A DNA stretch of 64,000 nucleotides from an uncultured Leptolyngbyaceae cyanobacterium (GTDB lineage: Bacteria > Cyanobacteriota > Cyanobacteriia > Leptolyngbyales > Leptolyngbyaceae), in assembly GCA_938023035.1 (NCBI GenBank), contig CALIDI010000014.1:16182-80181 (forward strand), in the 5' to 3' direction. Positions 6,857 to 59,444 of this stretch are shown one piece after another. A program made the position numbers and the translations under genes. How positions within the stretch are numbered: position 1 is the stretch's first letter; each line of letters opens with the position of its first letter. The notes under the pieces were generated by a model, which saw only the letters and a program-made list of their open reading frames with translations, was not told where the DNA came from and did no database searches.

Positions 6857-7468
6857 GTGAGCGTAACGCAGTTGAATCCAGTATCTGCTAAACCAACCCC
6901 CTATCTGCTTGAGAGCCTCGCAGATTTTCCCGTCGGTGAAACAGGGTGCCCACGCCGGGCACGGATGCAGATTGATCTGATGCTGTTAGCGATCGAAGCG
7001 TTAGACTTAAGCGGCTCAGAAGCCATTCTTGCCATGGCACGAGAGTTAGAACTACAGAGTATCATCCCCAATCGAGTTGCCCTCTGGCGCATGCGTAGCT
7101 CTAACCCCCTCCGCCGCTATAGCCAACGTCGTGCTCTGACCCTGCCTGAGGCAAAGGCACTGGTCATTATTGGGGCAAACTTGGCACGGCGTCTCACGGT
7201 CTTAATTCGGCAATTGCTGCTGGCCTATCAACAATTAACAGAAAAACAACTCTCCCTCGACCATCACTTTCGCTTGTCTGATTACCTGGAGCGGTTCCGC
7301 GTCCATTTCCGCGCCCGCATGAATCCCCGCCGTTCGGCAGTGGCTGCCTACACCGATGAGAAACTAAACCAGCTTGCGATAGAACAGTTGACCCAGCTTT
7401 TGTTTTGTACAGGCACCTACGGAATGCAGCGTTTTTGGAATAGTCTGTTTGACGGAGAAGTGGCATGA
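6857..7468 (+). CDS. DUF3038 family protein
   Basis: The 203-residue product matches my recollection of DUF3038, a cyanobacteria-restricted family of unknown function. The protein is basic and helical, with PRRARMQIDLMLLAIEAL near the start and a conserved-looking RFRVHFRARMNPRR segment. GTG at 6857 was chosen because AAAGGA precedes it at proper distance and the result starts MSVTQLNP. An upstream TTG at 6824 has no such site. Its stop overlaps the next start as ATGA, so the two are translationally coupled. No membrane segment is seen. Confidence 0.75.
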   Translation: MSVTQLNPVSAKPTPYLLESLADFPVGETGCPRRARMQIDLMLLAIEALDLSGSEAILAMARELELQSIIPNRVALWRMRSSNPLRRYSQRRALTLPEAKALVIIGANLARRLTVLIRQLLLAYQQLTEKQLSLDHHFRLSDYLERFRVHFRARMNPRRSAVAAYTDEKLNQLAIEQLTQLLFCTGTYGMQRFWNSLFDGEVA

Positions 7469-8892
7469 CAATTCAACGCCAATATAGCTTGCCCAGTTGT
7501 ACGCTCACCTTAGAGGGCTTGGGAGAAACGAAAGTCTCAAATCCGGCAGAAACTCGCCCACTAATGCTGGTGCTGCTGAATGCCTATTGCAAAATTGTGG
7601 GGCAAGAGCCACCGCTAACCGGAGGGCGTGAGTTCTTAGAAAGCCTGATTACAGAAGTGAGTCAATATACTCAGCGGTTACTGAGTGGGGTCAATCCTCA
7701 CCATGCCCCCAATCAGTCAAGCCTGGTGCAGTTGCAGCCTGTAGATAGTGCCCACCACCGGCTAAAAGTGCGGAATGGGGAGGGGACAGAGGAGCGATCG
7801 CTGGATTTGACAACGGTGCAACTCTTTGACCTGGTAGAAGCCCTGGATCAGATGCTGGCGGATCGGCAAACCTTGCCCAACCTATCCCTCAGCTTGCAAC
7901 CCCTTTCACGGCGCTACGTCCGCACCAGCGAGCCTTTCGTTAAGCAAGCGCTCCCGGCAGCAGTTGGCTTTTCTGGCTTAGCCGCGGCCTCCTTGCTGCT
8001 AGCGTTATTGCCAGCCCCCAAAGTGCCACAGCCCCGCTGTCTGTTGCCAACTCCTGAGTGTCGTGCTGAAGGAGCAAAAGAAGAAGAAAAGCGACCGCCG
8101 ACAGTGGCTTCTTCTCCTTCCCCTGCTTCTGGGGCTAGCCCTACCCCCAGTCCTGAGGCAACCAAGCCCTCCCCTGTGCCGCTGAATTCCCCTTCCCCTG
8201 AAACGGCCCCACCACCTGCCAATCCAACGGCTTCTCCCATCAGCAACCCCACCCAGGTTGAAACGTTGCGGCAACAACTACAACAAGAACTGGCAAAGTC
8301 CTGGAAGGGCCAGAATATATCAGAGGATTTGATTTATCGGGTCAGTGTGTCAGAGCAGGGGGTTGTTCGGGGTTATAAGGACGTGAATGATAAGGCGCTG
8401 ACCAATCTTCAGTTAACTCCTCTCCCCAATTTGCTGAAAGTTCCGCAGCCAGGGGAAGCCGCAAACCCAGAAGCACTGGCTGATTTTAAGGTTGTTTTTA
8501 CGCCAACGGGTCTGGTGGAAGTTGCTCCCTGGCAACAGGCAATGGTAACACCCCCTAACGAAAACCCAGAAATTACGAATAGTGATCAGTTAGAAAAGTT
8601 GCTACCCAAGTTGCGATCGCAATTGCGCGATAACTGGCCAAACAAAGACCCCAAATTTGTGAAGCCTCTGGAGTTTCAGGTGCGTGTTACCGCCGATGGC
8701 ACCATCGACGCTTACCGCCCTTACAATCAACCCGCCTTTGATTACGAAGTTGAAACCCCCTTACCCAAAATCGCCCAAAAGTCCACAGGAGAAATTCCGC
8801 CAACGCAACAGCCCCATGCCCTCTTTCGGGTGGTGTTTACTGAAAAAGGAACGATTGAGTTAACCCCCTGGCGTGGGTGGCGTAACGAATAA
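7465..8892 (+). CDS. DUF4335 family membrane-anchored protein
   Basis: The start MTIQRQYSLPSCTLTLEGL is the recognisable beginning of DUF4335, another cyanobacterial family of unknown function that commonly follows DUF3038. In this 475-residue protein the conserved N-terminal domain covers about 1-150. A single hydrophobic segment follows at about 163-182, then a long Pro/Ser-rich linker. The C-terminal half has two related stretches, each reading as a helix ending in KSW or DNW, then VS/VTADGT and LPKI/LPNL motifs. The layout suggests a cytoplasmic N-domain and an exported or lumenal repeat domain. It overlaps the upstream gene by four bases. Confidence 0.75.
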   Translation: MTIQRQYSLPSCTLTLEGLGETKVSNPAETRPLMLVLLNAYCKIVGQEPPLTGGREFLESLITEVSQYTQRLLSGVNPHHAPNQSSLVQLQPVDSAHHRLKVRNGEGTEERSLDLTTVQLFDLVEALDQMLADRQTLPNLSLSLQPLSRRYVRTSEPFVKQALPAAVGFSGLAAASLLLALLPAPKVPQPRCLLPTPECRAEGAKEEEKRPPTVASSPSPASGASPTPSPEATKPSPVPLNSPSPETAPPPANPTASPISNPTQVETLRQQLQQELAKSWKGQNISEDLIYRVSVSEQGVVRGYKDVNDKALTNLQLTPLPNLLKVPQPGEAANPEALADFKVVFTPTGLVEVAPWQQAMVTPPNENPEITNSDQLEKLLPKLRSQLRDNWPNKDPKFVKPLEFQVRVTADGTIDAYRPYNQPAFDYEVETPLPKIAQKSTGEIPPTQQPHALFRVVFTEKGTIELTPWRGWRNE

Positions 8893-9015
8893 AGGGGCAG
8901 GGGAGCCAAGGGCAGTGGCCTTAGCCGGCGGTTCATCCCTGAACCCTAACCTCAATCAAATGACTACGGCTGACTATGGTCACACCAGGAATAGCAGCTT
9001 GAATAAACCTAACGT

Positions 9016-9711
9016 TCACCCCGCCAGGGGAACCTGCTGCGGCCCAGCCCAAATGCTGTTGAGGTACTCTCCGTAGGTAATTGGCACATCCTCATCCGCC
9101 TGCTGGCTGTCACCTGTCAGGTCAACAGCCCAAAGGTGCCAATCGTCTTCCCCCATAGTGCCAGCTCGAAACAGAACGCGACCAGGGTGCTTTTGGCTCC
9201 AACCTAGCAAAATGGCATGGCTATAGTGAACTGGGGTCGGTGCCAGAGTGCTAACAGCATTGTGTTGACAATCGAGCACAACAGCATAATCTGAGGCTAG
9301 GTCGGAACAAAAGATAGACTCAAATTCTCGTGCTAACAGGCGATCGCCCGTTGGTGACCAGGCAATTGGAATCACGATAGAAATCGTGCCGTTGCGATCA
9401 GAAACCGTATCAGCAAAGGGATTATTGGCAAAAGGCGAAGAAGCTGTAATCGCTTGCAAATCTCCAGTGTGTAAGTTTTCAACAAACAGCACACTACTGA
9501 CCTGGCTGCGAAAAATCTCTGACTTTCGATACAACTGGATGCGACTGTAAGCCGCGTAGCAGTGGTCAGGGGAAATCAGAGATTGACTTCGATAGTAAAA
9601 GGTTTGTTCACCTACCCCGATATTTTCTGTAGAGAAGGTGGCCATCACCCAATTCCAGGGAACTGGATGGGGACTGTTTAACGGATCGACCTGGACGAAC
9701 GGATCTATCAT
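9016..9711 (-). CDS. Conserved hypothetical protein, possible beta-propeller fragment
   Basis: I do not recognise a named family. The 231-residue product is rich in short beta-type segments, and SPTGDRLLAREF resembles a WD40/TolB-like propeller blade, but no complete repeat set is visible. There is no signal peptide or membrane segment. A start at the internal Met23 (MATFSTENIG) is possible, because neither start has a clear ribosome-binding site. It converges with DUF4335 and leaves 123 bases between the stops. Confidence 0.6.
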   Translation of the reverse strand: MIDPFVQVDPLNSPHPVPWNWVMATFSTENIGVGEQTFYYRSQSLISPDHCYAAYSRIQLYRKSEIFRSQVSSVLFVENLHTGDLQAITASSPFANNPFADTVSDRNGTISIVIPIAWSPTGDRLLAREFESIFCSDLASDYAVVLDCQHNAVSTLAPTPVHYSHAILLGWSQKHPGRVLFRAGTMGEDDWHLWAVDLTGDSQQADEDVPITYGEYLNSIWAGPQQVPLAG

Positions 9712-10444
9712 GACAGCTTACAAAATATGGACAAAAGTTCATCAGCTTGTGGCGAAGCTGAGGAGGCAAACGCCGATTTTGCCGACGGGATCACCACGAG
9801 TTTTCCCATCCCAGCAGTCAACGGTTAGGCACTAGCTAACAAAACCGCGACTCCAGGTGCACTCATCACAACACCAAGGAAGAACCCCTACCACTTACCT
9901 AAACCTGCAACAGAAAACACCATTGACGACTGGCTAAACTGAAGCGTTCTATTAAAAGGTTTAGAGTGATTTGTTCATTGGGTCGCCTAGAGCAACTTGC
10001 CCCCTTGACCCTCACGCTTCTATCTCTTGGGCATCCCTTAAAAACCCGACAACCAAAATCAGGAATGCTATAGAGTAGACTAGCTTACGTTTTGCGCCAA
10101 GCTGGAGTTACATTTTGTAGCCTGCCAACCCATCATTCATCTGTTGGTAGGCTATAGACACCGAGCCTCCCCCACTCAATAAAAGCCTCAAAACCAAGTT
10201 CTGAGCGCTTCTCCCAACTACTTCATAGAGCTTAGAAGTTACCTCAGAGCTGATCAGGAAAAGAGGGAAATCAATGCCAGAGTCAGATGAGCCATCGCCC
10301 CCGATGGCTTGAGGCAACACCCTCAATGAAGCTAGGTTGATTGCTGGAAAAGTTAGGGTCAATGCCTTATGTATAGCAGTTGAAAGCGAGAATGGGCGGG
10401 ATTTTTGGTAACTTTCAAAATACTTAACGTTCTCTCTAAACTCT
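9712..10444. other. Spacer upstream of fmt
   Basis: About 730 bases lie between two divergently transcribed genes. A 119-codon frame on the minus strand (10108-10467) runs into the fmt start and has no recognisable motif, so I leave it uncalled. No clear repeat copy or promoter consensus was found. Confidence 0.45.
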
Positions 10445-11437
10445 ATGAAAATTGTCTTTTTTGGCACCCCCCTGTTTGCGGTTCCTAGCCTTGAACGTCT
10501 GCATCACCACGCTGGGTTTGATGTAGTAGCGGTTGTCACCCAACCAGACAAGCGCCGAGGCCGGGGGAGTGAGCGGTTACCTGCGCCGATTAAACAGGTT
10601 GCAATGGCCTATCAGATTCCTGTATGGCAACCACGCCGGGTTAAAAAAGATCTAGAAACCCTTGATCAATTACGCCAGACCCGTGCCGATGCGTTTGTTG
10701 TGGTTGCCTATGGGCAAATTTTATCTCAAGAAATTTTAGATATGCCGCGTCTTGGCTGCATTAATGCCCATGGTTCGATTTTGCCGGCCTATCGTGGGGC
10801 GGCTCCGATTCAGTGGAGCCTGTACCATGGCGAAATTGAGACGGGGGTGACCACTATGCTGATGGATGCTGGCATGGATACTGGCCCCGTGCTGCTCACA
10901 GGTCGCACTTCCATCGCCCTGTTAGAAAATACCGAGGATCTGGCGGCACGCCTGTCTCAAATGAGTGCTGAACTCCTGGTCGAAACCTTGCTTCAGCTGG
11001 ATCAGGGGAAAATTCAACCGCAACCTCAAAATGATGCCGATGCCACCTATGCGCCGCTAATTCAAAAAGAAGATTATCGATTGGATTGGAGCAAGGTTGC
11101 AATCGCTCTGCATAACCAAATTCGTGGCTTTTATCCGAACTGTCTCACGTCTCTGCGTGGTCAAGCGCTCAAAGTGCTGGCCAGTGCACCGCTACGGCCA
11201 GAAGATTGGCCGGCCTTACCCCCTGAGCTGCAAGCACTGCGATCGCAGGTGTCGACACTTTCCTCTGCTCAGCCTCCGGGAAGTGTTGTGGCGATCGCCA
11301 AGGGGCATGGCCCAATTGTGCAAACGGGCGAGGGTCTCCTCCTCCTGCGGCAGGTTAAGCCAGCCGGTAAGCGGATTCAATCGGGTTGGGATTTTGCCAA
11401 CGGTAGCCACTTGTTAGCGGGTGAGGTATTGGGTTGA
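10445..11437 (+). CDS. fmt: Methionyl-tRNA formyltransferase
   Basis: Formylates initiator Met-tRNA using 10-formyltetrahydrofolate. The N-terminal Rossmann-type formyltransferase domain begins [16 protein letters not shown]. Residues near 105-145 carry [19 protein letters not shown] and the GMDTGPVL stretch, covering the catalytic Asn-His and Asp region. The C-terminal tRNA-binding domain starts near 210 (IRGFYPNC) and ends [11 protein letters not shown]. Its length of 330 is normal for the family. The ATG at 10445 opens directly into the conserved beta strand. Confidence 0.97.
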
Positions 11438-11448
11438 GTGCAGGGGCA

Positions 11449-11607
11449 ATGGTTTGGGCTAGCGTGGCGGAGCAGTGGGATGTTTACTGGGGCGTTTGCG
11501 ATTGGCAGCGTCTTGCTCAAGGAACGAATGCCCTGCTGCAAAGATGGATAGTCGCAAAGACCAACCACCCAAATCTCAATGCTTGGGGTCAGAATGCGGC
11601 ACAATAG
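11449..11607 (+). CDS. Possible small Trp-rich ORF (doubtful)
   Basis: A 52-codon frame lies in the 200-base gap between fmt and the GT-C gene. It begins MVWASVAEQW and ends WGQNAAQ, with several Trp residues. An AGGGG stretch sits just ahead of the ATG but closer than is usual. I recognise no family, and it may be chance. Confidence 0.2.
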   Translation: MVWASVAEQWDVYWGVCDWQRLAQGTNALLQRWIVAKTNHPNLNAWGQNAAQ

Positions 11608-11638
11608 GCCTGTTGCGTACTGGTTTTGAGTTTCATCA

Positions 11639-13018
11639 ATGGCGAAGTCAGCCGCCCTGCCCGCGATCGCTCTTGCTCTGGCTTTTTGCCTGTGTGCGGA
11701 GCTAACCATTTTAGGGATTGACAAGTTTCATTACATTCAAGCGGGGGGTGCCAAGTTTGCGACATTTCCCCACCTTGCGGCTCAACTGAGGATTGGTGGT
11801 CTCTACAGTCTGTTACAACTGGTGTACTTTAGGTGGCTCTGGCAAGCCCCAACGATGCGCTGGGGCACTTCCTGGAAGGACTGTCTACGCCAGAGTGCTC
11901 CCTTCGTTCTGTTAGGTTTTTTAGCCTATCCCCTGGGCAACGATGGGTATCTCTATCTCCACTCCGGTTTAATGAATTTAGCGGGAGTCAACCCCTTCAT
12001 CACCCCAGCGGCGGCCTTTATCAGTCGGCTTTCTCCCTTTGTTGACTGGGGTCAGACATCGACCTATGGGCCTTGTTCACAACTACTGTTTAGTATGGCG
12101 GCGATCGCGGTTCCCATTCATCCATTGTTGGGGATTTACCTGTTTAAGGGGTTATGTGGAGGGCTGCATCTACTCAACGGTTATCTGGTGTGGCAATTAC
12201 ACGACTCTGAAGAACACAAGTGGTGGGCGATCGCCTATCTGGTCAATCCACTCTTGCTGATGGAGCAGGTTGGCTCTGGGCATGTGGATGTACTCGTCAG
12301 CAGTAGTTTTCTGCTCCTGGCAAGCTTGTTGCGCAGTCAGCACTATGTTCTGGTCTTTTGGGTCGTGTGGGCCGGTTTTTTGGCAAAAACGCTACCTATT
12401 TTGTGGCTCCCCTTGGTCGTGGTGTTTCTTCTTCGACAGCGGTGCTGGAGCCAATGCCTGGTAGGTCTGGGGCTTTCTTGCTTGCTGCTGGTCGATCTAG
12501 CACTGACCATTTTACCCACCTTAGAAGCGTGGCGCAGTCTGCTCAATCCAGGGGTCGTTGGGCAGTATCGGGCTTCGCTACATGAATTTGTGCAATTCAG
12601 CTTGAATGTGATCCAGGGGGTAATGGCGCATCCCCTGGCGCTGGCGGAGGAGCGATCGCTCTTACAACGGGCCAGTCAATACCTGACGGGTAGTTATCTC
12701 CTGATTTACACCTGGTTTCTACTCCACAGCTTAATGCAGCCAGTCTACAAGCGGCCCCATTTGCTCAGTGATATCGGTTGGGTCACTCTGATTCTTTTTT
12801 GGGTTGCCATCCCCTGGGTCATGCCCTGGTATGCCTCTAGCGTGATCACGATCGCCGTTGTTTCGCCCTGCGATCGGCTGCGCTGGGCCAGCTTTGCCTA
12901 TAGCTTTACCAGTACGCTGCAATATCTGCTCCACGGCTTTCCGGGGCTGAATAGTTTGATTATGATTGGGGTGCCGCTACTGGTGTTACTCCTGCGACCA
13001 AGGCCACTAACGGCGTAG
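11639..13018 (+). CDS. GT-C type membrane glycosyltransferase (GT87-like)
   Basis: The 459-residue integral membrane protein has about ten hydrophobic helices. The features resemble polyprenol-phosphate-dependent GT-C mannosyltransferases of the GT87/DUF2029 type: an extracytoplasmic loop with PLGNDGYLYL, then the sequence INPFITP-like GVNPFITPAAAF, a STYGPCSQLLFS loop, and GSGHVDVLV. It probably adds a sugar from a lipid-phosphate donor to an envelope glycan or lipid on the outer face of the membrane. The gene overlaps the convergent murJ by 12 bases at the 3 prime ends. Donor and acceptor are inferred from family only. Confidence 0.75.
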   Translation: MAKSAALPAIALALAFCLCAELTILGIDKFHYIQAGGAKFATFPHLAAQLRIGGLYSLLQLVYFRWLWQAPTMRWGTSWKDCLRQSAPFVLLGFLAYPLGNDGYLYLHSGLMNLAGVNPFITPAAAFISRLSPFVDWGQTSTYGPCSQLLFSMAAIAVPIHPLLGIYLFKGLCGGLHLLNGYLVWQLHDSEEHKWWAIAYLVNPLLLMEQVGSGHVDVLVSSSFLLLASLLRSQHYVLVFWVVWAGFLAKTLPILWLPLVVVFLLRQRCWSQCLVGLGLSCLLLVDLALTILPTLEAWRSLLNPGVVGQYRASLHEFVQFSLNVIQGVMAHPLALAEERSLLQRASQYLTGSYLLIYTWFLLHSLMQPVYKRPHLLSDIGWVTLILFWVAIPWVMPWYASSVITIAVVSPCDRLRWASFAYSFTSTLQYLLHGFPGLNSLIMIGVPLLVLLLRPRPLTA

Positions 13019-14710
13019 CAGCTTTTGCCGGAGCCGCACGGCAAACTGGTTCACCTCAGGCAGCTTGAGTTGAAACGCCATCACTCCATAGACGAGCAAC
13101 CCCACCGTACCCGCGGTCGCCAATTGTAACAGCAACACCCCCAGCCCCCTGGAGCCTAGCCACTGTTCACTCAGATGCAATGCTCCCCAGCTTGTCAACC
13201 CGGCCACCCCACTGGCGATCGCCAATCCTCCAATGGGGACACTCCAACCAAGGAGGGGCAGACCTCCCAAGCGACGATGCAAAATCAGCAGCAGCACCAC
13301 CAGAGAAACGACATTAACGCCCACAGTTGCCAGCACCAGCCCCGGGGCGCCAAAGGGTAAAAGCAAGTAATCCAGCAAAGCATTTAAGAAAATATTGACC
13401 ACGCTAATGCGAAAGGGGGTGTCCCCATCGCCCAAGCCATAAAAGACGCGCACAGCAACATCGCGCCCCAGATAAACAAACATGCCAACGGCATAGGCTA
13501 TCAACACAGACGCGGTCAGATAGGCATCCTCTAGTCGAAAGGCATAACGCTCGTACACCACCCGCGAGATTGGTACTGCCAGCACAATCATCAGCGCACT
13601 CATGGGTAGCATCGTCAATGCCGTCATCAATAACCCCTGGCGAATCCGTAATTTCAGCTCGGGCCAGTTGTCTGGAGTAGACAACCGGGAAAAGAGGGGC
13701 ATCAGGGGCACCAGAATCATATTAGAGAGAATACCTACCGGAGTTTGTACTAAGAGTCCGGCGTAGCCCATGGCCGAAACTGCGGCGGCGGCATTGGGAA
13801 TAAAGGAAGCAAAAAATAAGTCTGTCCAGACATTAATTTGCATCATGCCGGAGGAAAAGGTTGCCGGCCCCATCACCCGGATCACCTCCTGCACCTCAGG
13901 CTGGCGAAAATTAAAGCGGGGGCGAAACCCTCCTAGACCTGCTTTCCACTGGGCTGGAAGTTGCATTAACCACTGCAACACTCCACCTGCCAGGGTTGAC
14001 CAAGCTAAAACAACGCCGCCCAGCATCGCGTTTTCCGGTAGGCTGATTTTCTCACCCAGATAAAGGGCTAGCCCCCCTAGGCCTATCAGAACAGTGAGGC
14101 TAGAAAAGATTGGGCTGAGGGACGGCAGCCAGTAGAGATCGGCGGCATTCAGCGCCCCAAAACCGATGCCAATTAACCCCGCCAATATTGCCATGGGTGC
14201 CATGATCCGGAGTTGCTGAATGGCAATTTCGCGGGTAACTTGTAGAGTTTGATAGGCGGCGATCGCCTGCTCCGCCGTAAGGTTCCCTTCTGCCTGCACC
14301 TGCGCTGGGGTGAGAAATAGCCCTGGTGCAATCAGGCGAGTCATTGGCTCTGCAAACACAATCAACAACAGCGTCACGACCAGCAAAATGCCACACACCA
14401 GGGTAGAAATACTTTCTAGGATGGGGGCTGCTTCCTCGCGTTTGCGTTTGGCCAACACACTGACAATAGCACTATGAAAAGGGCCGTTGATGCCCCCCAG
14501 CAGGATCAGCAAAAAGCCCGGAATCACGTAGGAGAAGTTGTAAGCCCCAAAGGCTGGCCCTACACCAAAAGCTGCCGCAATTGCCTGCTGGCGGAAAAGA
14601 CCAAACAGTTTACTGATCAGGGTGGCGATCGCCACAATCGTGGCAATTCCCATTAGTGATCGGGCCGCTCGGCGGCGATTTTCGGGAGGGGTCGGGTTCG
14701 CTTCAGACAC
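13007..14710 (-). CDS. murJ: Lipid II flippase MurJ/MviN
   Basis: A MATE-like MOP-superfamily exporter of about 14 helices that flips undecaprenyl-linked peptidoglycan precursor across the plasma membrane. Recognition rests on the N-terminal helix pair ending SKLFGLFRQQAIAAAFGVG, on GGINGPFHSAIVSVLAKR, and on the GLGDGDTPFRISV segment in the C-terminal half. A GTG at 14710 (MSEANPTPP) is used; a TTG 27 bases further upstream is also open, and neither has a strong ribosome-binding site. Its 3 prime end overlaps the GT-C gene. Confidence 0.92.
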   Translation of the reverse strand: MSEANPTPPENRRRAARSLMGIATIVAIATLISKLFGLFRQQAIAAAFGVGPAFGAYNFSYVIPGFLLILLGGINGPFHSAIVSVLAKRKREEAAPILESISTLVCGILLVVTLLLIVFAEPMTRLIAPGLFLTPAQVQAEGNLTAEQAIAAYQTLQVTREIAIQQLRIMAPMAILAGLIGIGFGALNAADLYWLPSLSPIFSSLTVLIGLGGLALYLGEKISLPENAMLGGVVLAWSTLAGGVLQWLMQLPAQWKAGLGGFRPRFNFRQPEVQEVIRVMGPATFSSGMMQINVWTDLFFASFIPNAAAAVSAMGYAGLLVQTPVGILSNMILVPLMPLFSRLSTPDNWPELKLRIRQGLLMTALTMLPMSALMIVLAVPISRVVYERYAFRLEDAYLTASVLIAYAVGMFVYLGRDVAVRVFYGLGDGDTPFRISVVNIFLNALLDYLLLPFGAPGLVLATVGVNVVSLVVLLLILHRRLGGLPLLGWSVPIGGLAIASGVAGLTSWGALHLSEQWLGSRGLGVLLLQLATAGTVGLLVYGVMAFQLKLPEVNQFAVRLRQKLLRR

Positions 14711-15121
14711 AGCGCATCTTGGATGAATTGGCTTCAACTATTTAACCGTAGAAAGAAGCGAAAAGCTTGCAGCCCGCCACCGAGATTGGCGACTGATGGA
14801 GTATCGCGATCGCCAGCTTACTGAATACACCAGGGTTAAGGGCATCTAGATGCGCCAACCCCCCACCAAAGACTTCACCCCTGCAACGCTCTTTCCTCTC
14901 TTCTCTCTTCTCTTTTCTCTCTCCTAGTTCGGCAAAACAACGAACTGGCAGAATAAACAAGCGTTGAAGTCATAGAGGCCAGAGGTGGTTTAGATGAGAC
15001 AACTTCATCATCTGTAACAGTCTTAGCTCGATTTCGCACTCTGCTCAGCGACCCACTACGGTAATGTGGGTAGAGTGACTTTACCCGCATGGTTTTCCTT
15101 CCTAGTTTTCTTTTCTAAAGT
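14711..15121. other. Divergent promoter spacer with polypyrimidine tract
   Basis: This is the region between divergent murJ and hemC. A run made almost only of C and T occupies about 14889-14926, similar in character to the run at 54900-54955. No -35/-10 consensus is obvious ahead of hemC, and no gene is supported. Confidence 0.5.
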
Positions 15122-16102
15122 ATGACCCTGACCGCATCCCCTGAAACGGCTTCCTCAACTCGCATTATTCGGATTGGCTCTCGTAAAAGCCAGCTTGCCC
15201 TGGTGCAAACTCACTGGGTGCAGGCAGAGCTGCAAAAAGCCTTCCCTAATCGCACCTTTGAAGTCCACACAATGAGCACCCAGGGAGACAAGATTCTGGA
15301 TGTAGCTCTGGCAAAAATCGGCGATAAGGGCCTGTTTACCAAAGAGCTAGAAGTTGGGATGCTCGCTGGGGAAATCGACTTTGCCGTTCACTCCCTTAAG
15401 GATTTACCGACGCGCTTGCCAGAGGGTCTGGTGCTGGGATGTGTGACAGAGCGCGAAAACCCTGCCGATGCCCTGGTGGTACACCCTCAACATCGGGATA
15501 AACAGCTAGATACTCTGCCAGCGGGAGCCGTAGTGGGTACGTCTTCTCTGCGGCGTTTGGCTCAACTGCGGCATTACTATCCCCATCTCGTGTTTAAGGA
15601 TGTGCGGGGCAATCTCAATACCCGCCTGGCTAAGTTAGATGCCGGGGAGTATGATGCCTTGATTTTGGCGGTAGCGGGCTTGCAGCGTTTGGGCATGGGC
15701 GATCGCGTCCATCAAGTAATTCCTGCCGAGGTGTCGCTCCATGCTGTGGGGCAGGGCGCTTTGGGAATCGAGTGCCGCGCTGATGATGAGGAGGTATTAG
15801 AACTCCTACAAGCCTTGCAACACCCGGAGACAGCAGCCCGTTGTTATGCTGAACGGGCCTTTCTGCGAGATCTGGAAGGAGGTTGCCAGGTTCCAATTGG
15901 AGTTGACACCACAATTACAGACAACACCCTCACACTCAAGGGAGTTGTGGCCAGTCTAGATGGCCAAACCCTGGTAAAGGATAGTGTCTCTGGCCCGGTG
16001 AGTGAAGCGGAGAGCCTTGGCACAGCCTTAGCCCAAAAGCTGCGCCAGCAGGGTGCGCAATCGATTCTAGATGAGATTTTTGCCACCCTGGAACGAGGAT
16101 AA
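15122..16102 (+). CDS. hemC: Porphobilinogen deaminase (hydroxymethylbilane synthase)
   Basis: Condenses four porphobilinogens into hydroxymethylbilane in tetrapyrrole synthesis, feeding heme, chlorophyll and bilins. Visible motifs are the N-terminal [24 protein letters not shown] in the catalytic cleft, [12 protein letters not shown], and [10 protein letters not shown], whose Cys attaches the dipyrromethane cofactor. At 326 residues it has the usual cyanobacterial length with a short N-terminal extension. It is monocistronic by layout. Confidence 0.97.
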
Positions 16103-49903: not shown

Positions 49904-51079
49904 TTAGCTAACCTCAGCTAAATGAAAGGCTGCTCCTAGCCCTGCACCTAACTCATCGGGGGTTATTTTGCCGTCTTTATTTACATCCAGCGCATCAAAC
50001 ACTGCGTCTGACCCCATCCACTCTTCGCGCGTGATAAAGCCATCTCCATCCAGGTCATAGGTCTGGAAAATGTCCTCAGCCGCATGGCTAATTACCGCTT
50101 CTCCTTCCAGATAAGCCAGGCGATTCGCCAATAATTTTTCCAGAGCGACTAACGCCTTGGTAAAACCAGTAATCCCTTCATCTAGCTTTTGGGAAGCCAT
50201 GCGATCAGCCGCGTGCATTTTATCAAAGGTGGCCTTGTCAATCGTGAGCTTTTCAATATCCAGGCTGGCGGCCTTTGTTGGGTCAAGTTTGCGCGGCAAC
50301 TCGCCCTCGGTAGCTTGTAGTTGGCCGAGCAGAGTAGGGGAAATGGTGAGTAAGTCACAACCCGCCAGTTCAGTGATTTCGCCAATGTTACGGAAGCTCG
50401 CCCCCATCACCTCCGTGGCATACCCAAACTTCTTGTAATAGTTATAAATCTGAGTGACTGACAAAACTCCTGGATCTTCAGCGGGTGCATATTCTTTCCC
50501 AGTTTCTGCCTTGTACCAGTCGAGAATACGGCCAACAAAGGGAGAAATCAAAGTCACTTTGGCTTCGGCACAGGCGATCGCCTGATGCAGCCCAAATAGA
50601 AGGGTAAGGTTGCAATGAATCCCTTCCTTTTCTAAAACTTCGGCCGCTTTGATGCCCTCCCAAGTAGAGGCAATTTTAATTAAGACGCGATCGCGCGAAA
50701 CACCAGCTTTTTCATATTCTGAGATAAGAAACCGAGCCTTCTCAATCGTCGCCTCAGTGTCATAGGACAAACGCGCATCCACCTCTGTGGAAACTCGCCC
50801 TGGCACAATCTCTAGAATACGCTGACCAAACGCCACCGCCAGCCGATCAAACGCTAGGGAAAGCACCTGCTCATCGGTACCAGAACTCGCATCCCGCTTT
50901 GCCTGTTTTAGCGTTTCATCCACAATTTCCTGATACTCCGGCATTTGAGCAGCCGCGGTAATCAATGAGGGGTTAGTGGTGGTGTCGCGGGGCTTATATT
51001 TTGCGATCGCCTGAATATCTCCCGTATCCGCAACTACGACCGTCATCTCGCGTAGCTGCTCAAGCAGATTCTTAACCAT
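49904..51079 (-). CDS. tal: Transaldolase with C-terminal EF-hand pair
   Basis: Transfers dihydroxyacetone units between sugar phosphates. The TIM-barrel part (about 1-325) shows [21 protein letters not shown], the Schiff-base Lys in [11 protein letters not shown], and [18 protein letters not shown]. Residues about 340-385 contain two EF-hand loops, [13 protein letters not shown] and [13 protein letters not shown], each with Asp/Asn at the calcium positions and a final Glu. This extension is known in cyanobacterial transaldolases of about 391 residues. GGAG precedes the ATG by six bases. First gene of the tal-glgP unit. Confidence 0.97.
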
Positions 51080-51674: not shown

Positions 51675-53321
51675 ATGCCGAGACTTGATTATTTTGCTCC
51701 CGGTGTTTATATCGAAGAAATTGACCGGGGCAGCCGGCCAATTGACGGCGTCCAAACCAACATTGGCGGATTCATCGGCTTTACCGAAGATGTTCGGGGT
51801 GGTGCAGAACTCTACAAACCCATGCTAGTCACCAGTTGGAACCAGTACTTACAGTACTTTTCCAAACAGGGATCGGATGGCTTCACCGACTTCAACGCCT
51901 ATCTTCCCTTTGCGGTGAATGGTTGGTTTTTGAATGGCGGTGGTCGCTGCTGGGTCATGAGTATTGGCACCCAACTCCCTGGCACTAAAGCCCCTGCCCT
52001 GGTAGAGAGCGGCCTCAAGCTAACAACGCGCAGTAACCGGCCAGCCTTGGGCTTTTCCCTGAAACCAGAAGAACATGAAAATGGACGCCTTGAAGTGCGG
52101 ATTGAAGAAAGCACTCCCCTGCCGCCCGAAGATCCCGATGCGGAACCACCCATTGACACAGGCGAGTTTTTCAGCGTCGTGATTAGCCGTAATGGCGAAG
52201 AATTAGAGCGCCACGATCACCTAACCATGAACCCAGAGGCTGATGCCAGCACCGGCATTTATGTCGTTGAAGCTCTGCGAGAGTCAGAATTTATTCTGGC
52301 TGTGGATATGTCTCAGTCGGGTCAACCCCTAGCCCGTCGCCCTGCCAATGGCAACTATGAACTCAACCCCCCCATTCTCCCATCTTCCCCTGAGCGCTTC
52401 TCTCGCGATATTCAAGGAGTTAGGGATGACCGCACCGGGGTACAGGGCTTGTGCGAAATCGATGAAATCACAATGATGGCCTGCCCCGATTTAATGCGGG
52501 TTTATCAGGCCGGTTTGATGGATCTCGATCAAGTCCACGGGATTATGGAGTTGATGATCAGCCTGTGCGAAAATTCCACCCCTAACCCGGCCAACCGCAT
52601 GGTGGTGCTCGACACCCCACCCGACAAGATTAAGCCTCAGCAAGTGGCGAACTGGCTACAGAATGAATTCAATCGGCGCTCGATGTACGCGGCCCTCTAT
52701 TACCCCTGGATTAAGGTGCCCAATCCCCGTAATGGTGGCCGTCCAATTCTGATTCCGCCTTCGGGTCACATGATGGGGGTATGGTCTCGCACCGATGAAA
52801 CCCGTGGCATCTATAAAGCCCCGGCAAACGAAACGCCTCGAGGTGTGATTGGGTTGGCCTATGAAACCAACTTCCGCGAGCAGGAGTTACTCAACCCAAT
52901 TGGGATTAACTGCATCCGCACCTTCCCCAACCGGGGCATTAAAATCTGGGGTGCTCGCACTCTGGTTGAGCCAGAGAAAACCGAGTGGCGTTATATCAAT
53001 GTGCGCCGCCTGATCAGCTACATCGAGAAATCGATTGAGCTAGGTACTCAATGGGTGGTGTTTGAGCCAAACGACGAAGAACTGTGGGCACGGGTGCGTC
53101 GCACAGTCAGCAACTTTTTAGAGCGGCTCTGGCGGGAAGGTGCTCTGTTTGGCAGCACTCCAGAGGAAGCGTTCTATGTCAAGTGTGATGGGGATATCAA
53201 TACTCCCGACACGATGATTCTAGGCCGTCTCTATGTCGAAGTGGGGATCTGCCCGGTGCGTCCAGCAGAGTTTGTCGTCTTCCGCATCAGCCAGTGGAAC
53301 AGCCAGGAGGATGAGGGCTAA
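51675..53321 (+). CDS. Contractile tail sheath protein (phage tail / injection-system type)
   Basis: The 548-residue protein begins MPRLDYFAPGVYIEEIDRGSRPI, the standard start of tail sheath proteins; the Val/Ile-rich strand donates to a neighbouring subunit. The C-terminal sheath domain is clear: YINVRRLISYIEKSI near 445, QWVVFEPND, LWREGALFGSTPEEAFYVKCD, then VGICPVRPAEFVVFRI. The middle (about 115-240) is a variable insertion domain. In eCIS and phage tails this protein polymerises around the tube and contracts to drive it. AGGAG seven bases upstream fixes ATG 51675, not the earlier ATG at 51648. Confidence 0.95.
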   Translation: MPRLDYFAPGVYIEEIDRGSRPIDGVQTNIGGFIGFTEDVRGGAELYKPMLVTSWNQYLQYFSKQGSDGFTDFNAYLPFAVNGWFLNGGGRCWVMSIGTQLPGTKAPALVESGLKLTTRSNRPALGFSLKPEEHENGRLEVRIEESTPLPPEDPDAEPPIDTGEFFSVVISRNGEELERHDHLTMNPEADASTGIYVVEALRESEFILAVDMSQSGQPLARRPANGNYELNPPILPSSPERFSRDIQGVRDDRTGVQGLCEIDEITMMACPDLMRVYQAGLMDLDQVHGIMELMISLCENSTPNPANRMVVLDTPPDKIKPQQVANWLQNEFNRRSMYAALYYPWIKVPNPRNGGRPILIPPSGHMMGVWSRTDETRGIYKAPANETPRGVIGLAYETNFREQELLNPIGINCIRTFPNRGIKIWGARTLVEPEKTEWRYINVRRLISYIEKSIELGTQWVVFEPNDEELWARVRRTVSNFLERLWREGALFGSTPEEAFYVKCDGDINTPDTMILGRLYVEVGICPVRPAEFVVFRISQWNSQEDEG

Positions 53322-53449
53322 AAACCCAGGTTCATTGCATTTCTGTAATTTATTCCGGGAGGGTCGGGGCGATCGCCGAAAACATAACCAAAACTGGTGA
53401 TCTGAATCTTCAACCCTTCCCCCAACTATCCATTCTTAGGTAACGCGCT

Positions 53450-53926
53450 ATGGCAAATCAGAAAGAAGTTTTAGTCGGTTGTCGATTTTACTTTGAGGCT
53501 TCTCCAGGAGTCACTGAAAAGATGATCCTGGAAGTCTCTGGCTTGAGTGCAGAATCTCCTGCTGCTGGCGGTGACAAAGTTCTTGGTTCGGGCAAGGGGG
53601 CAATCAACCTGCGGCAAGCCGCCCCCACCCGGGTTAAGTTTTCGCCAGTAGTGGTTAAGATTGTCGCTACTGAAGAACGAGATCTCTATGAGTGGTATGC
53701 CCAGTGCAACAAAAATGAAGGGGGCGGCAACTCTTGGTCTAACCAAAATCGCAAAGAAGCCTCGATTAGTGTCCTAGATCAGGAAGGTAAAATCCGCGCT
53801 CGTTGGGAGATTATTAATGCTTATCCCACAAAATATGAAGGCCCTAAATTAGAAGCGAGTTCTAACGATGTGGCCAACGAGACGATTACCCTTGTCCACG
53901 AGGGAATTAAGCGCGTCCCTGTCTAG
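53450..53926 (+). CDS. Contractile-system tube protein A (gp19 family)
   Basis: A 158-residue inner-tube protein of the phage T4 gp19 type. It opens VGCRFYFEASPGVTEKMIL and has EVSGLSAESP, then VVVKIVATEERDLYEWYAQC and RARWEIINAYPTKYEGPKLEASSNDVANETI-type wording at the end, the normal hexameric-ring fold. It lies 128 bases after the sheath gene on the same strand. Its sequence differs clearly from tube B, so the pair is probably specialised, as in eCIS clusters with two tube paralogues. Confidence 0.92.
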   Translation: MANQKEVLVGCRFYFEASPGVTEKMILEVSGLSAESPAAGGDKVLGSGKGAINLRQAAPTRVKFSPVVVKIVATEERDLYEWYAQCNKNEGGGNSWSNQNRKEASISVLDQEGKIRARWEIINAYPTKYEGPKLEASSNDVANETITLVHEGIKRVPV

Positions 53927-54093
53927 AATTTACTCAGACAGTTACTCAAGGGTGCGTCTTTTACCATTTTGGATTTTTGACTCTGGCAATGCGCTAATTG
54001 AGGCATAAGGGAGTTTGAATCAACGTCAGTCTGTGCAGGCACTCTTTTTCGCAAATCTGGTGCTGTTGCTGAAACGAAAGTCTAGCCCTTTGC

Positions 54094-54114
54094 AAAGATG
54101 CGATCGCATCTTTT
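54094..54114 (+). promoter_or_regulatory. Perfect HIP1-centred palindrome ahead of tube B
   Basis: AAAGATGCGATCGCATCTTT is a perfect 20-bp palindrome with one further T, ending seven bases before the tube B ATG. As RNA it forms an 8-bp stem with a GAUC loop across the place where a ribosome-binding site should be. It may control tube B translation or stop part of the transcripts. Confidence 0.5.
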
Positions 54115-54120
54115 ACCACA

Positions 54121-54609
54121 ATGCCAACTGCAGGTAACCTGCCCGAAATTTTAACCAATTGCCGCTTTTATTTAGAGCTGAAGCTTGATGGCGGCGACGC
54201 CCCTGTCGATGCCTATTTTTTAGAGTGTCGGGGATTCAAGGTAACCCAAGATGTGGTGGAATTTTGTGAGGCCACCGCTCAGCAATGGGGCAACGCTAAA
54301 CATGGCAATATTGTGCGAACCAAAGTCCCCGGTAATGTCAAGGTCAACAACATTGCGCTGAAACGGGGGATGACCCAATCTATTGCTATCTGGAACTGGT
54401 TTAAAGCGGTACAGGAGGGCAAGTGGGGTGAACAGCGCCGCAATGGGTCTTTGTTTATTTATGACCAGGATGGTGCAATTCAAGCCATTTTTGATTTCTT
54501 TGGAGCCTTCCCCACTAGCTATACCCTGGCGGATGTTAACTCTAGCAGCAACGAGGTGGAGATTGAAGAAATGGAGATTGCTTGCGAGAAATTAGTACGA
54601 AAAAAATAA
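54121..54609 (+). CDS. Contractile-system tube protein B (gp19 family)
   Basis: A 162-residue second tube protein. It starts LPEILTNCRFYLELKLDGGDAP and continues ECRGFKVTQDVVEF. A VKVNNIALKRGMTQSIAIWNWF segment and RRNGSLFIYDQDGAIQAIFDFFGAFPTSY-type wording follow; LKRG plus IWNW is the usual gp19-family signature. It lies 194 bases after tube A, with a palindrome in place of a ribosome-binding site. One paralogue may form the tube tip or contact the baseplate. Confidence 0.92.
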   Translation: MPTAGNLPEILTNCRFYLELKLDGGDAPVDAYFLECRGFKVTQDVVEFCEATAQQWGNAKHGNIVRTKVPGNVKVNNIALKRGMTQSIAIWNWFKAVQEGKWGEQRRNGSLFIYDQDGAIQAIFDFFGAFPTSYTLADVNSSSNEVEIEEMEIACEKLVRKK

Positions 54610-54961
54610 TCTACGTTGATTTAACCCTTAGCAGCTACTGCGATCGCCAATTTGCTAGGGTGCATTTCACTTTTGCAAGTTGCCCCATCCTGCAGAAAAC
54701 AGAGCGCTCTGTCCCCCAACGCTTTTCCCAAAATGGGCGCAAGGGGAGCTAGATTCAAAGTCCCTCTCCCTCCTTAGGAGAGGGATTTAGGGTGTAACTT
54801 GCTTCCCACAGAGTGGGTTACGAAACTGGGATGCAGTCGTTTGCTAAGTCCATTGCGGCTAAGGAGATGTGTGAGCGCCAGAGGCTTCACCCCGATAACT
54901 CTCTCTTCTCTTTCCTCTCTTCTCTTTACCCTCTTCTCTTGTCTTCTTTCATCTACCTACC
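54610..54961. other. Spacer with inverted family I repeat and polypyrimidine tract
   Basis: The gap inside the contractile-system cluster holds a full-length inverted family I repeat (54661-54802) and a CT-rich run at about 54900-54955 just before the next ATG. No gene is seen. Confidence 0.6.
54661..54802 (-). repeat. Dispersed palindromic repeat, family I, inverted copy E
   Basis: On the minus strand it reads GCAAGTTACACCCTAAATCC, then CCTCTCCTAAGGAGGGAGAGGG, GACTTTGAATCTAGCTCC and finally CAAAAGTGAAATGCA. This follows the order of the 42 kb element, so insertion has occurred inside the sheath/tube gene cluster. Confidence 0.65.
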
Positions 54962-55261
54962 ATGTTTCAAACCGAGTTTGAATTCACTCTACCTAAGGGC
55001 TATTTAGATGCCGATGGCCTTTTGCATCGTCAAGGCATTATGCGGCTTTCTCGCACGATGGATGAAATTGTGCCCCTGCGAGATCCGCGGGTAAAAACCA
55101 ATCCGGCCTACGCCACAGTGATTATTTTGTCGCGGGTGATTACACAACTCGAAGGGTTAGATGAAGTGACCCCGGCGGTGATTGAGGGTATGTTTGCCTG
55201 CGATTTGAACTATTTGCAACAGTTCTACCGTCGGATTAATGAACTAGAGCCAGCAGAATAG
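54962..55261 (+). CDS. Phage tail assembly-type small protein
   Basis: A 99-residue protein beginning MFQTEFEFTLPKGYLDADG, with IMRLSRTMDEIVPLRDPRV, NPAYATVIILSRVIT and DLNYLQQFYRRINELE. This resembles the small tail-assembly proteins that follow the tube genes in phage-like and eCIS clusters, where they probably act as assembly chaperones. It is the last gene on this strand before a convergent gene. No strong ribosome-binding site precedes the ATG; a pyrimidine run does. Confidence 0.75.
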   Translation: MFQTEFEFTLPKGYLDADGLLHRQGIMRLSRTMDEIVPLRDPRVKTNPAYATVIILSRVITQLEGLDEVTPAVIEGMFACDLNYLQQFYRRINELEPAE

Positions 55262-55367: not shown

Positions 55368-58300
55368 CTACGGTGCCTCAATAGCTCCTAAATTTTTTAG
55401 GGCTGCTTTTTGGGCATCGGTTAAGCCCGTTACTCCCGAGATGTTCATGCCTTCGTAGGGCCGTTTTGCCCGTAAAACCTGCTGGCATTCGCCCGTATCT
55501 ACCCGCCAAAGGCGAATGGTTTCATCTTTGCTGCCGCTGGCTAGGAGCATACCATCTTCACTAAAGGCGACTGATCGCACCCAACCGGTATGCCCTGAAA
55601 ATCTCCGAATTTCTTTGTTTGTCTTGATATCCCAAAGGGTGACTGAGTTATCTTCACCACCACAGGCCAGGGTTTGACTATCGGGACTAAAGGCTAGCGA
55701 TCTCACCCTGACCGCATAGTCAGAAAGCGTTTGAGTAGTCTGGTAGGTTTGCAAATCCCACAATCGCACGGTGCGATCGCCGCTACTACTGGCCAGCCAT
55801 CGCCCATCAGGACTAAACACCACCGATCGCACCCAGTTTTGGTGCCCTGTTAAACACCGCAGTTGGCTTTGGTCTTTAACACGCCAGAGCCGCACCGTGC
55901 CATCCCCGCTGCCGCTGGCTAGGATCGTACTGTCGGGGCTAAAGGCGACGGCCCAAACCCAATCCTTATGCTGTTCGAGATGCCAACACGTGCGATCGAC
56001 AAGGCGGCAGAGATAGATAGTTTTATCATCGCTGCCACTGGCCAGCCATTGCCCATCGGGGCTAAAGGCCACTGAGCGCACCCAATTTTGATGGGCCGGT
56101 AAGACATCCAGGCAACGCCCAGTTTCAACCTCCCATAGCCGCACAGTCTGGTCATCGCTGCCGCTAGCCAGCGTCTTACCATCGGGGCTAAAGGCAACAG
56201 CCCAAACCCGGCTATTGTGCCCCACCAGCGATTGAATGCATTCTCCTGTTACCCCATCCCAAATTCGGACAGTCTGGTCATCGCTCCCACTAGCGAGCAA
56301 TAATCGCCCTGACAGTTGCTCTGGGGCAAAGGCCACTGAGCGAATGCTGCGACTGTAGCCTTGCAGGGTTTGAATCGGAGAGATATGATCGACTTCGCTC
56401 ACATCCCAGAGACGAATGGTCTGGTCATCACTACTGCTCACTAGGGTCTGTACTGTTTTTCCCTGGGCTTCATCAGACAGAGAAGTGAAGGCCACTGACC
56501 AGACACGACTGGTATGTTCTTTGAGTGTATGTAATCGTTTACCTGACTCAACGTCCCAAAGGCAGACGGTTTGATCATCCCCCCCGCTGGCAAGGAGCTT
56601 GCCGTCTGCGCTAAAGGCAACCGTCCAGACGCGATCGCTGTGTTCTTTTAAGATATGCAGGCATTTACCAGAGTCGATATCCCATAATCGCACCGTGCGA
56701 TCGCTACTAGAACTGGCTAAAAGGGTGTCATTTTGGGGGCTAAAAGCAACAGAGCGCACCCCACGGGTATGCCCAGTTAGGGCGCGAATACACTGACCAC
56801 TCTCTGAATCCCAAAGTTTGATGGTGCGATCCTGACTGCCACTGGCCAGCAGTTGACCATTCTGGTGAAACACTAGCGACCGCACCCCACTCTCATGGGT
56901 TTCGCTTAGCTCGCGACAGATGCTAGTTTCCACATCCCAAAGGCAAATTGTGCGATCCATACTGCCGCTAGCCAATGTCTTACCATCAGGACTAAAGCTA
57001 ATCGCCCTGACACCATCTTTATGGTGCTTGAGGGTCAGGCGGCATTGTTTACGCTCAAGATCCCACAGTCGAATCGTATGGTCATCACTGCCACTGGCTA
57101 GGGTCTGACCATCAGGGCTAAAGGCGATCGCCCGCACCCATTCCGAATGGCCATTCGAGAAGGTGAGTAAAGGCTCATTATCAGTCATATTCCAGACTCG
57201 AATCTCGCCCTTAGTGTCCCCCATGGCCAGTTGATCACCTTTGGTGTTAAAGGCAACGGTCAAGATGCTGCTGAAGGTTTCGTTGAAAACAGACTTTGAC
57301 AGGTTAGAGCGGGCAAAATTTAAATCGTGCAGTTCCATACCCTGAAGGTATGCCTGCCAAATTGTGAGATCCGAAAAATCATAATGACTCCCGCTTAAGT
57401 TGAGACGGAGTTCTCGCAGCAGGTTTAAGGCATTACCTCCGGCATAGCCCATTTGCATTACAGACTTTGCCCGAATGCGGTGGAGTAATTGCTTGAGGGT
57501 CTGGCCTACGGCTTCTTCACTTCCTAGAATGTGAATTAACTGTTGCAGCAGGGGCTTGAGAATTTCCTCAATTTGTCTTTGCCGAATGTAATCCTTCGCT
57601 TGAGCTTTGATCAAAGCATGACTGCGAAATAAGGGAGCGGGCAGGGGCGCCAGCGAACTAGCTGGTAAAGGGGGATCCGGCAGTGAATCTGTTTTGGCAT
57701 CGAGTAACGTTAGGCTCTCATCAACAAGCTCTCGACCAACTTCTTCAATCAGGGTTTGGGTAACATACTCCATCACAACAGAGTGGAGTGAAAATCGCCC
57801 CCCATTTTTTTGAATCAGCGATCGCTGATTCAGAGACTTTAGGGTTTCCAGTAACTCGATCTGAAGAAAGGGGCGCGTTTCAGGCGGCAAAATATCCTGC
57901 TGTAACTCTTGCAGAGACACCTGCTCTTCACGGTTAATGGCTAGCCAATACATCACCGTTTTTTCGAACGGGGTGAGTCGATTAAATTGTTGATCTAACA
58001 GATTACGAATACCGCTGAAAATAAAGGAGCTTTGCTTCAGAAAGTCAGCAATTTTATCACCAAACAATTCATGAATCGTTGTTGCAACTAGCTTCAATGC
58101 TAGGGGATTGCCGATATAGCGGTTGACCAATTGCCGTTTTTCTTCCTCGCTGCCCTCTAGTCCTCTGGCCGCTAGAATTTCGTAGGACTCTGTTTTTAAC
58201 CCCTGAAGTTGTAAAGCCCGCACGGGAAGATTTTCTCCTGCTTGGTCAGCAATCTCTCGCGGCTTTTCGCGGCTGGTAATGAGCAGACAACTGTGGTGCA

Positions 58301-59039
58301 GTGCCTGCCCCATACGCCCTAACCCTACCCACTGGAAAAGCTTGCCATAGTCGGTGTAGTCGCTCTGGTATTGCCCAGTGAGGGCCGCGGGTTTTAACAC
58401 CGACTCAAAGTTATCTAGCACGATTAGACAACGCCGTTGTTGCATGCAATCAATCAACCGATCTAGAGCATCCTCAACGTTGCTAGATATCGTTTCATGA
58501 TTCTCTTTGCCATCAGAGAGAAAGGAGAGAATGTCTGCTAATAGATTGATCAACGGCTGACCGCTTCGGAGCGATCGCCAGATCACCCGATCAAACTTGT
58601 GCTGAATTCGATCGGCCAGCTTCAACGCCAGCGCCGTCTTGCCAATGCCCCCCATGCCCAACAGCAGCACCAACCGACATTTCTGCACCACTATCCAGTC
58701 TTCAAGGGTACTCAACTCCGCCGTCCGCCCATAAAAATCAGCCGCATTATCAAAGGCGCTCCCCCAATCTTGTTGGATTGCCGGAGCAGACGACTGCACT
58801 GTCAAGCGCTGTTTTAGGGTGGCTAGCTTGCCAGGACCTCTCCCCCCAATGTTGAACTTTTTATAAACTTCGCCCAATCGCTTTCGCACAGCCACCTCAC
58901 TAATACCGAGATGTTGGGCAATATCCGCGATCGGCTTCCCCTGAAGTGCAAATGTTACCACCTGCCACTCTGCATCAGAGACCCCTTTCTCATCCGCCAA
59001 ACGTCGCAAAAGGTCATTGGGAGGCTTGAGGGTAGCCAT
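55368..59039 (-). CDS. STAND protein: HTH, NB-ARC NTPase and 14 WD40 repeats
   Basis: A 1223-residue protein. Residues about 15-70 form a LuxR-like HTH ([38 protein letters not shown]). The NB-ARC NTPase at about 100-390 has Walker [18 protein letters not shown], Walker [11 protein letters not shown], and [10 protein letters not shown] helical region and short pentapeptide-like stretch ([11 protein letters not shown]) precede 14 WD40 repeats from about 590 to 1190, enough for two seven-blade propellers. It ends [21 protein letters not shown], a common tail of cyanobacterial WD40 proteins. It is probably an NTP-driven sensor-switch. ATG 59039 was preferred to a GTG five codons upstream. Confidence 0.93.
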
Positions 59040-59444
59040 ACGCTTCTCTCTCACAAAGAAATAGATTGTTATATCAGGTGAGATCTATCACACATCAACG
59101 CATCAAAAAGATGAATCCGCACCTTCTAGAAAGCTCTGTATCCTAAGAGACTGAAGCCCCAAAATGCGTAACCAACACTACTAAAAATCAAGGCAAGATC
59201 GATTCCTGAAGCAGAACCCTGCTGTCAGGTTATAACACAGGAGCTCCAAATCCCTTCAAAAGGTGGCACACATCATGAAAAAACATGGTTGACAGATTAC
59301 TGGTAGAGATATATATAATTTATGTGAGCATAAGTGATGTAATTATACAACTTTCTGCAAGTCGCAGTATTTTTGGGTTTAGATCCATAGGTATTTCTCA
59401 CTTGGCTTTGGTTTGCTATTCTTACACGTCTGAGAGGAAATCCT
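59040..59444. other. Divergent spacer with promoter
   Basis: About 400 AT-rich bases between the STAND gene and the small gene at 59445. The near-consensus promoter at 59289-59319 is the only clear signal. Confidence 0.5.
59289..59319 (+). promoter_or_regulatory. Near-consensus sigma-70 promoter
   Basis: TTGACA at 59289 is followed after 17 bases by TATATA (59312) and after 19 by TATAAT (59314-59319). It would drive the small gene at 59445 with a leader of about 120 bases. Confidence 0.55.

Follow-up and report, generated by a model that had tools for sequence, protein, structure and literature searches.

A sheath and tube cassette in a Leptolyngbyaceae cyanobacterium, probably one segment of a dispersed class IId-like contractile injection system

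A stretch of 64,000 nucleotides (the window) from contig C14 (CALIDI010000014.1) of an uncultured Leptolyngbyaceae cyanobacterium carries a cassette of four genes of a contractile injection system (CIS). The cassette encodes a sheath, two tube proteins, and a probable tail assembly chaperone. It is probably the sheath and tube segment of one apparently complete class IId-like CIS, the remaining segments of which are found on four or more further contigs. The machine is likely put together in the cytoplasm and then docked to a membrane for firing. For convenience, contigs of this genome are labelled C, genomes of the family (n = 42, own included) G, and fetched loci L.

Reading frames were listed for 46–60 kb of the window. 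The Cis2-type sheath (548 amino acids (aa); 51675..53321) matches Pfam Phage_sheath_1 (E 1e-14) and Phage_sheath_1C (E 1e-17). It is followed by gp19-type tube protein A (158 aa; 53450..53926) and gp19-type tube protein B (162 aa; 54121..54609), each of which matches Phage_T4_gp19 (E 1e-30) and TIGR02241. The last gene (54962..55261) encodes a 99-aa protein with a weak match to PHROG phrog_508 'tail assembly chaperone' (E 0.0027). All four frames are open and lie on the plus strand. An earlier note, made from the letters of the window, had described a sheath, two gp19 tubes, and a tail-assembly-type protein together on one strand in intact frames; the frames, Pfam, and PHROG bear this out. Its reading of a CIS sheath and tube core outside a prophage is supported as well. 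The sheath start that it gives, 51675, is also backed: among 14 cyanobacterial sheath frames compared, 12 have their first start codon exactly at residue 1 of this start. An in-frame ATG lies upstream at 51648.

The 99-aa protein has no Pfam or NCBIfam match, and its model (predicted local distance difference test (pLDDT) 68) has no PDB match below E 0.001. Its database relatives number 2552 (all 120 listed are at least 78% identical; one relative is named for Nostoc sp. PCC 7107), and its counterpart in the CIS of Streptomyces sp. NBC_01324, two genes after the sheath, is 52% identical over 92 aa, indicating that the gene is real.

Sheath, tube, hub/spike, gp25, baseplate J, and cap/AAA are all encoded in the genome. 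In genome-wide searches, the sheath of the window is the single sheath match. The same searches give one gp25, three gp19, one TIGR02243 baseplate protein, one spike, one Pvc16_N cap, one DUF4159 match, and one eCIS_core protein. The CIS AAA ATPase has one strong match (E 4e-213), the next best being 2e-16. Since sheath, gp25, TIGR02243 protein, cap, and strong AAA match are each single, with gp19 present three times, the scattered parts are taken to belong to one system. The CIS genes are spread over six contigs, C14 counted, and form five structural segments on five of them (C14, C44, C56, C1, and C21), each flanked by non-CIS genes on both sides within its contig. The earlier note had allowed that the missing parts lie elsewhere in the genome, which holds for gp25, spike, baseplate, AAA ATPase, and cap. 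Its other suggestions, a remnant or a minimal, specialised cassette, are not supported, as the genome encodes the remainder of one system in other places, and these parts are conserved.

The hub segment on C44 starts with a histidine kinase (3108-4235) and a GerE-type response regulator (4351-5028), followed by a kinase-like membrane protein of 900 aa (5189-7891), a 111-aa protein (7902-8237), a Cis5-type tube (8234-8791), a Pro/Ala-rich protein of 1289 aa (8868-12737), a CIS_tube protein (Cis7-type; 12829-13446), a spike (13584-15407), and a PAAR protein (15455-15952). The baseplate segment on C56 encodes gp25 (6211-6633), baseplate J (7006-9252), and a Tail_P2_I/TIGR02242 protein (Cis12-type, 383 aa; 9274-10425). 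An AAA+WHD ATPase and the cap are encoded on C1, and the eCIS_core protein on C23. C21 encodes the DUF4159 protein and proteins of 756 aa (with WD40 repeats) and 822 aa, both of which have a long N-terminal part followed by a single strong hydrophobic helix. The C-terminus of the 1289-aa protein and the 111-aa protein may be Cis6-like spike plugs; neither the last 61 residues of the former nor the latter gave a useful match in the PDB. Short Gln-Lys/Arg motifs recur by eye in the 1289-aa protein, and the length of the long Pro/Ala-rich protein varies among relatives in the same place, from 844 aa (G020) to 1893 aa (G035).

The five segments correspond to successive parts of one gene order, which relatives still keep largely united: cap-AAA, then sheath-tubes-chaperone-(111-aa)-Cis5-long protein-Cis7-spike-(PAAR), then gp25-J-Cis12-type-DUF4159-helix proteins. 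Most of this order lies within one 40–70 kb stretch in G020, G028, and G035; unmatched in these stretches are the AAA ATPase (G020), PAAR (G028), and the kinase-like protein, PAAR, and the last helix protein (G035). We surveyed 16 named cyanobacterial sheath loci with flanks of up to 10 kb. Sheath, tube, tube, chaperone, kinase-like gene, and Cis5 are consecutive on one strand in nine of them (L011-L017, L019, and L020). The second half is divergent and adjacent in two (L018 and L024), linkage is not seen within the fetched stretch in two (L010 and L023), and a contig edge lies on one side in three (L021, L022, and L025). Loci L021-L025 gave no match to the 99-aa protein.

This sheath lineage is present in 14 of the 42 family genomes (E 2.4e-160 or better; next best 1.2e-75). 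The sheath lies less than 20 kb from the spike in nine of these and on a different contig in four (own, G002, G021, and G041); the spike was not found in the remaining one (G006). Baseplate J lies within 30 kb of the sheath in 3/14 (G020, G028, and G035), far from it on the same contig in 2/14, and on a separate contig in 9/14, where the G031 match is partial and at a contig edge. The two far cases are G014, at about 125 kb, and G018, where a contig of 6.24 Mb puts 4.3 Mb between the two genes (1.9 Mb in the opposite direction, should the contig be circular). Many of the genomes are fragmented drafts, in which a difference of contig is no proof of distance. However, G018 and G014 consist of four and three contigs, respectively, and do prove a distance between sheath and baseplate. 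Separation of the baseplate segment is thus common across the family. The sheath cassette stands apart from the hub in the two genomes of the window's genus, and two further genomes show the same, judged from draft assemblies. Sheaths of this lineage also occur on plasmids of Brasilonema, Pseudanabaena, and Kovacikia, with 64-71% identity (L158, L159, and NZ_CP083583.1). Several family genomes hold two or more different sheath lineages, so cells with several types of CIS are common.

The best PDB match of the sheath is 8bky, the sheath of the Streptomyces coelicolor CIS (CISSc), which aligns over the full length (residues 5-543; E 3e-122); 8bky is named S. coelicolor Cis2 in PMC11566945. The sole PDB match of baseplate J at E 0.001 is 9gtp (E 1e-109), an entry with a sheath sequence identical to that of 8bky; its accession is given in PMC12237407, a paper on CISSc. 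Streptomyces plasmid clusters have the same gene run, the 99-aa protein included; the order on the plasmid of strain NBC_01324 is sheath-tube-chaperone-DUF6760-long protein-tube-LysM-VgrG-PAAR-gp25-J-tail protein-zinc-ribbon membrane protein. Judged by the sheath, baseplate J, and the 99-aa protein, the nearest studied systems are the cytoplasmic class IId CIS of Streptomyces, which the earlier note did not name. As in CISSc, the candidate partner is a one-helix membrane protein. Unlike CISSc, the system here has five gene segments and three gp19 proteins, and its membrane protein is of the kinase-like type described below, whereas CISSc has the zinc-ribbon protein CisA. We use 'class IId-like' rather than class IId because the genes are not contiguous; they form five segments, with the order as in the clusters. 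PMC10020575 already refers to class IId systems of filamentous cyanobacteria, and PMC12998442 places CIS of Chloroflexota and Deinococcota in lineage IId.

These relatives bear on whether the particle leaves the cell and attacks others, as a released (extracellular) CIS does. The eCIS_core protein on C23 and the PAAR spike tip on C44 would suit such a use. However, the closest studied relatives are described as working within the producing cell (PMC10066040, PMC12237407, and PMC12998442), and no tail-fibre gene is recognised beside the baseplate genes of C56 (by eye, no fibre profile run). Release is therefore an unlikely use of the particle.

The thylakoid-anchored CIS (tCIS) of Anabaena PCC 7120 (all3313-all3327), held in thylakoid membranes by Cis12, Cis13, and Cis19 and encoded in one contiguous cluster, is the studied cyanobacterial CIS (PMC8894136). 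The host here is a cyanobacterium too, and the two systems share a sheath, gp19 tubes, counterparts of Cis7/8/9/11/12, cap, and AAA. In addition, the thylakoid is also a possible docking membrane for the machine described here. However, the strong alignment of our sheath with the tCIS sheath (E 1e-53) is limited to the C-terminal third. We built a tree on the C-terminal part of the sheath (62 rows, none from phages; L021, L022, and L152 were dropped, having no full C-terminal match). In the tree, the window's sheath and 14 cyanobacterial rows form a clade with support 100/100, while tCIS All3325 lies elsewhere, with the second sheaths of three family genomes (95/62; 100/99 with 9qgl). Halogeometricum borinquense, the third PDB sheath match (E 5e-92), stands beside the tCIS branch and not in the own clade. 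The Cis12-type protein is also short, with 383 aa, whereas the long extension of tCIS Cis12 is given at residues 610-1100 in PMC8894136. A tCIS, one of the two possibilities raised by the earlier note, is therefore very improbable here; the sheath and baseplate J point instead to the class IId-like system.

Dispersal itself could mean that the segments are leftovers of a lost system, and two family genomes do look like such cases: G009 has a lineage spike with stops and no matching lineage sheath, and G016 has a baseplate and no sheath match. However, none of our own matches to sheath, gp25, gp19, TIGR02243, spike, AAA, and cap contains a stop, and the system is kept in a second species of the window's genus, Leptolyngbyaceae cyanobacterium M33_DOE_097 (G002; sheath locus L010). 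There, the counterparts lie on C105 (sheath), C375 (hub end), C361 (kinase-like protein), C226 (baseplate), C370 (AAA and cap), and C11 (DUF4159) of that genome, and C105, C226, C370, and C11 each repeat the matching segment of ours. Of the nine genes on C44, the comparison is limited to Cis7, spike, and PAAR, as C375 begins at that point. For 15 CIS genes, nonsynonymous divergence (dN) between the two species is 0.06-0.28, and synonymous divergence (dS) is above 1 in nine and saturated in six. The dN/dS ratios, 0.02-0.13 where computable, are only rough, because dS is high or saturated and both control genes saturate too; purifying selection on the compared genes is nevertheless clear from these sequences. 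The sheaths are 90% identical, close to the 89% of the neighbouring transaldolase. A decaying relic is thus hard to believe.

The transaldolase, with C-terminal EF-hand motifs (Pfam; 49904-51079, minus strand), flanks the cassette on one side, and a WD40-rich protein of 1228 aa (55368-59054, minus strand; N-terminal helix-turn-helix and ATPase part by eye) on the other. The WD40 gene was considered as a member of the locus and dropped, its counterpart being absent from the same-genus stretches compared. Contig C14, and the window with it, ends 8.7 kb beyond the cassette. Between our genome and G002, most other neighbours in the compared stretches differ; transaldolase and glycogen phosphorylase stay beside the sheath cassette, and ParA-like and CHASE2 genes stay with the cap segment. 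A phosphate acetyltransferase-like gene (by eye; C44/L006 15999-18272) adjoins PAAR in our genome and lies about 5 kb from the sheath in G002 (C105), which suggests that the sheath and hub segments were once neighbours.

A prophage or tailocin tail would account for the homology of sheath and tube to phage tails, but it is scarcely credible here, as the only head family tested, the HK97-type capsid PF05065, has no match in the whole genome (other capsid types were not searched) and the best phage matches among those listed are distant (below 60% identity and at most 156 bits, against 786 bits in cyanobacterial plasmids).

The class IId-like system has a candidate membrane partner in the 900-aa protein of C44. 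It is composed of a kinase-like domain (Pkinase E 3e-5, below the curated cut-off), one hydrophobic helix, and a periplasmic-binding-protein-like (PBP-like) domain (E 8e-4, below the cut-off). The PBP-like domain scores above the cut-off in the L018 and Brasilonema relatives, and below it in L013. A CxxC zinc-ribbon-like motif is present in our protein and those of L018, L024, and Brasilonema, and is not evident in the other eight aligned. The catalytic loop reads HGN in all 11 aligned proteins. HxD is the catalytic-loop motif of active kinases; its replacement by HGN predicts a pseudokinase. In Foldseek searches with the AlphaFold model of the L018 relative, all 50 matches listed are kinases, Ser/Thr kinases included.

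The kinase-like/PBP gene follows this sheath lineage. A profile search gives matches in 19 of the 42 genomes, of which 16 are counted, with both halves covered; G017, G022, and G023, where only the kinase part matches, are left out. The protein is present in 14/14 genomes of the sheath lineage and in 2/28 others (Fisher P 2e-9, not corrected for relatedness). The two exceptions keep other parts of the lineage, G016 the baseplate and AAA, and G009 spike pieces with stops. Gene and sheath are on different contigs in 8/14. On a Brasilonema plasmid, the kinase-like gene lies inside the CIS cluster with a histidine kinase, a response regulator, and an FHA protein. In our genome, the two-component pair upstream of the kinase-like gene fits a known neighbourhood, as GerE regulators, some with an upstream histidine kinase, are reported beside extracellular CIS loci (PMC8213781). 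A Deinococcus plasmid CIS cluster also carries a membrane Ser/Thr kinase, an FHA-kinase of 1592 aa with one membrane helix (L156 11631-16409, minus strand). Unlike our protein, it has HGD in the catalytic loop, an FHA domain, and no PBP domain match.

In Streptomyces, CisA is a one-helix membrane protein needed for contraction, with an outer domain that PMC12237407 likens to substrate-binding domains and PMC10020575 to carbohydrate-degrading domains. The CisA-like protein of NBC_01324, so named from its place and layout, matches an F5/8-type family. By analogy of layout, we propose that the kinase-like/PBP protein is the dock and trigger of the system, a CisA analogue with no detectable homology. 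Homology of this protein to CisA-like proteins was considered and set aside, as none is detectable with a two-sequence profile (the genome was not searched with CisA).

A mechanism can be outlined by analogy with class IId systems, the behaviour of which is described in PMC10066040, PMC12237407, PMC12998442, and PMC10020575. The two-component pair on C44 would switch the segments on, and their products would meet in trans and build one particle. Assembly, in which the 99-aa chaperone and the AAA ATPase would help, would take place in the cytoplasm. The kinase-like/PBP membrane protein, its kinase-like domain predicted to be inactive, would sense a ligand outside the cytoplasm, recruit or release the particle, and on the ligand signal allow firing at the cell's own membrane. 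The one-helix proteins of C21 and the eCIS_core protein may be the cargo. In S. coelicolor, Sco4256-4258 are single-helix CISSc-associated effectors whose loss phenocopies loss of the CIS (PMC10066040). The helix layout of the C21 proteins and their position after the baseplate genes in relatives suggest a similar role. By the same analogy, the most likely outcome would be cell death under stress.

Several observations weigh against this interpretation. The genome is a draft with unordered contigs, so two segments could be only about 8 kb apart, the minimum distance possible from the contig ends. In the sheath tree, the own clade joins S. coelicolor, an Anaerolineaceae sheath, and ten more rows with support 85/71 and long-branch warnings, so a monophyletic class IId that includes it is weak. 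The structure model of the kinase-like protein is poor (pLDDT 61), and its PBP part comes from Pfam without structural support, since the Foldseek matches listed are all kinases. Comparison with two CisA-like proteins gives an hhalign probability of 0.1% (two-sequence profile). In addition, the kinase-like match contains one stop each in G008, G014, and G016, and a stop in a second copy in G041.

The kind of machine is already known; the dispersal of its genes and the kinase-like/PBP partner look new. Among the titles and abstracts of open-licence papers that were listed, none reports a CIS distributed over several loci or a pseudokinase associated with a CIS. The Amoebophilus system may also have unlinked parts. 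More tentatively, and with more doubt than confidence on our side, the system could stand for a further mode of cyanobacterial CIS: a cytoplasmic class IId-like machine encoded in unlinked segments and armed by a membrane pseudokinase with a solute-binding domain that reads a small molecule outside. It would fire at the cell's own membrane, with cell death gated by a nutrient or stress ligand, and the pseudokinase would be a counterpart of CisA of independent origin.

In a large survey of CIS, linkage decided what counted as a system: genes had to fall within 12 kb, and a locus needed ten or more core genes (PMC8213781). A split system like this one would be missed by such a definition or called a remnant, and CIS of cyanobacteria may therefore be undercounted. 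The kinase-like/PBP protein is a concrete candidate for how a CIS with no recognised fibre could find its membrane and receive its firing cue, a question shared with the Streptomyces system.

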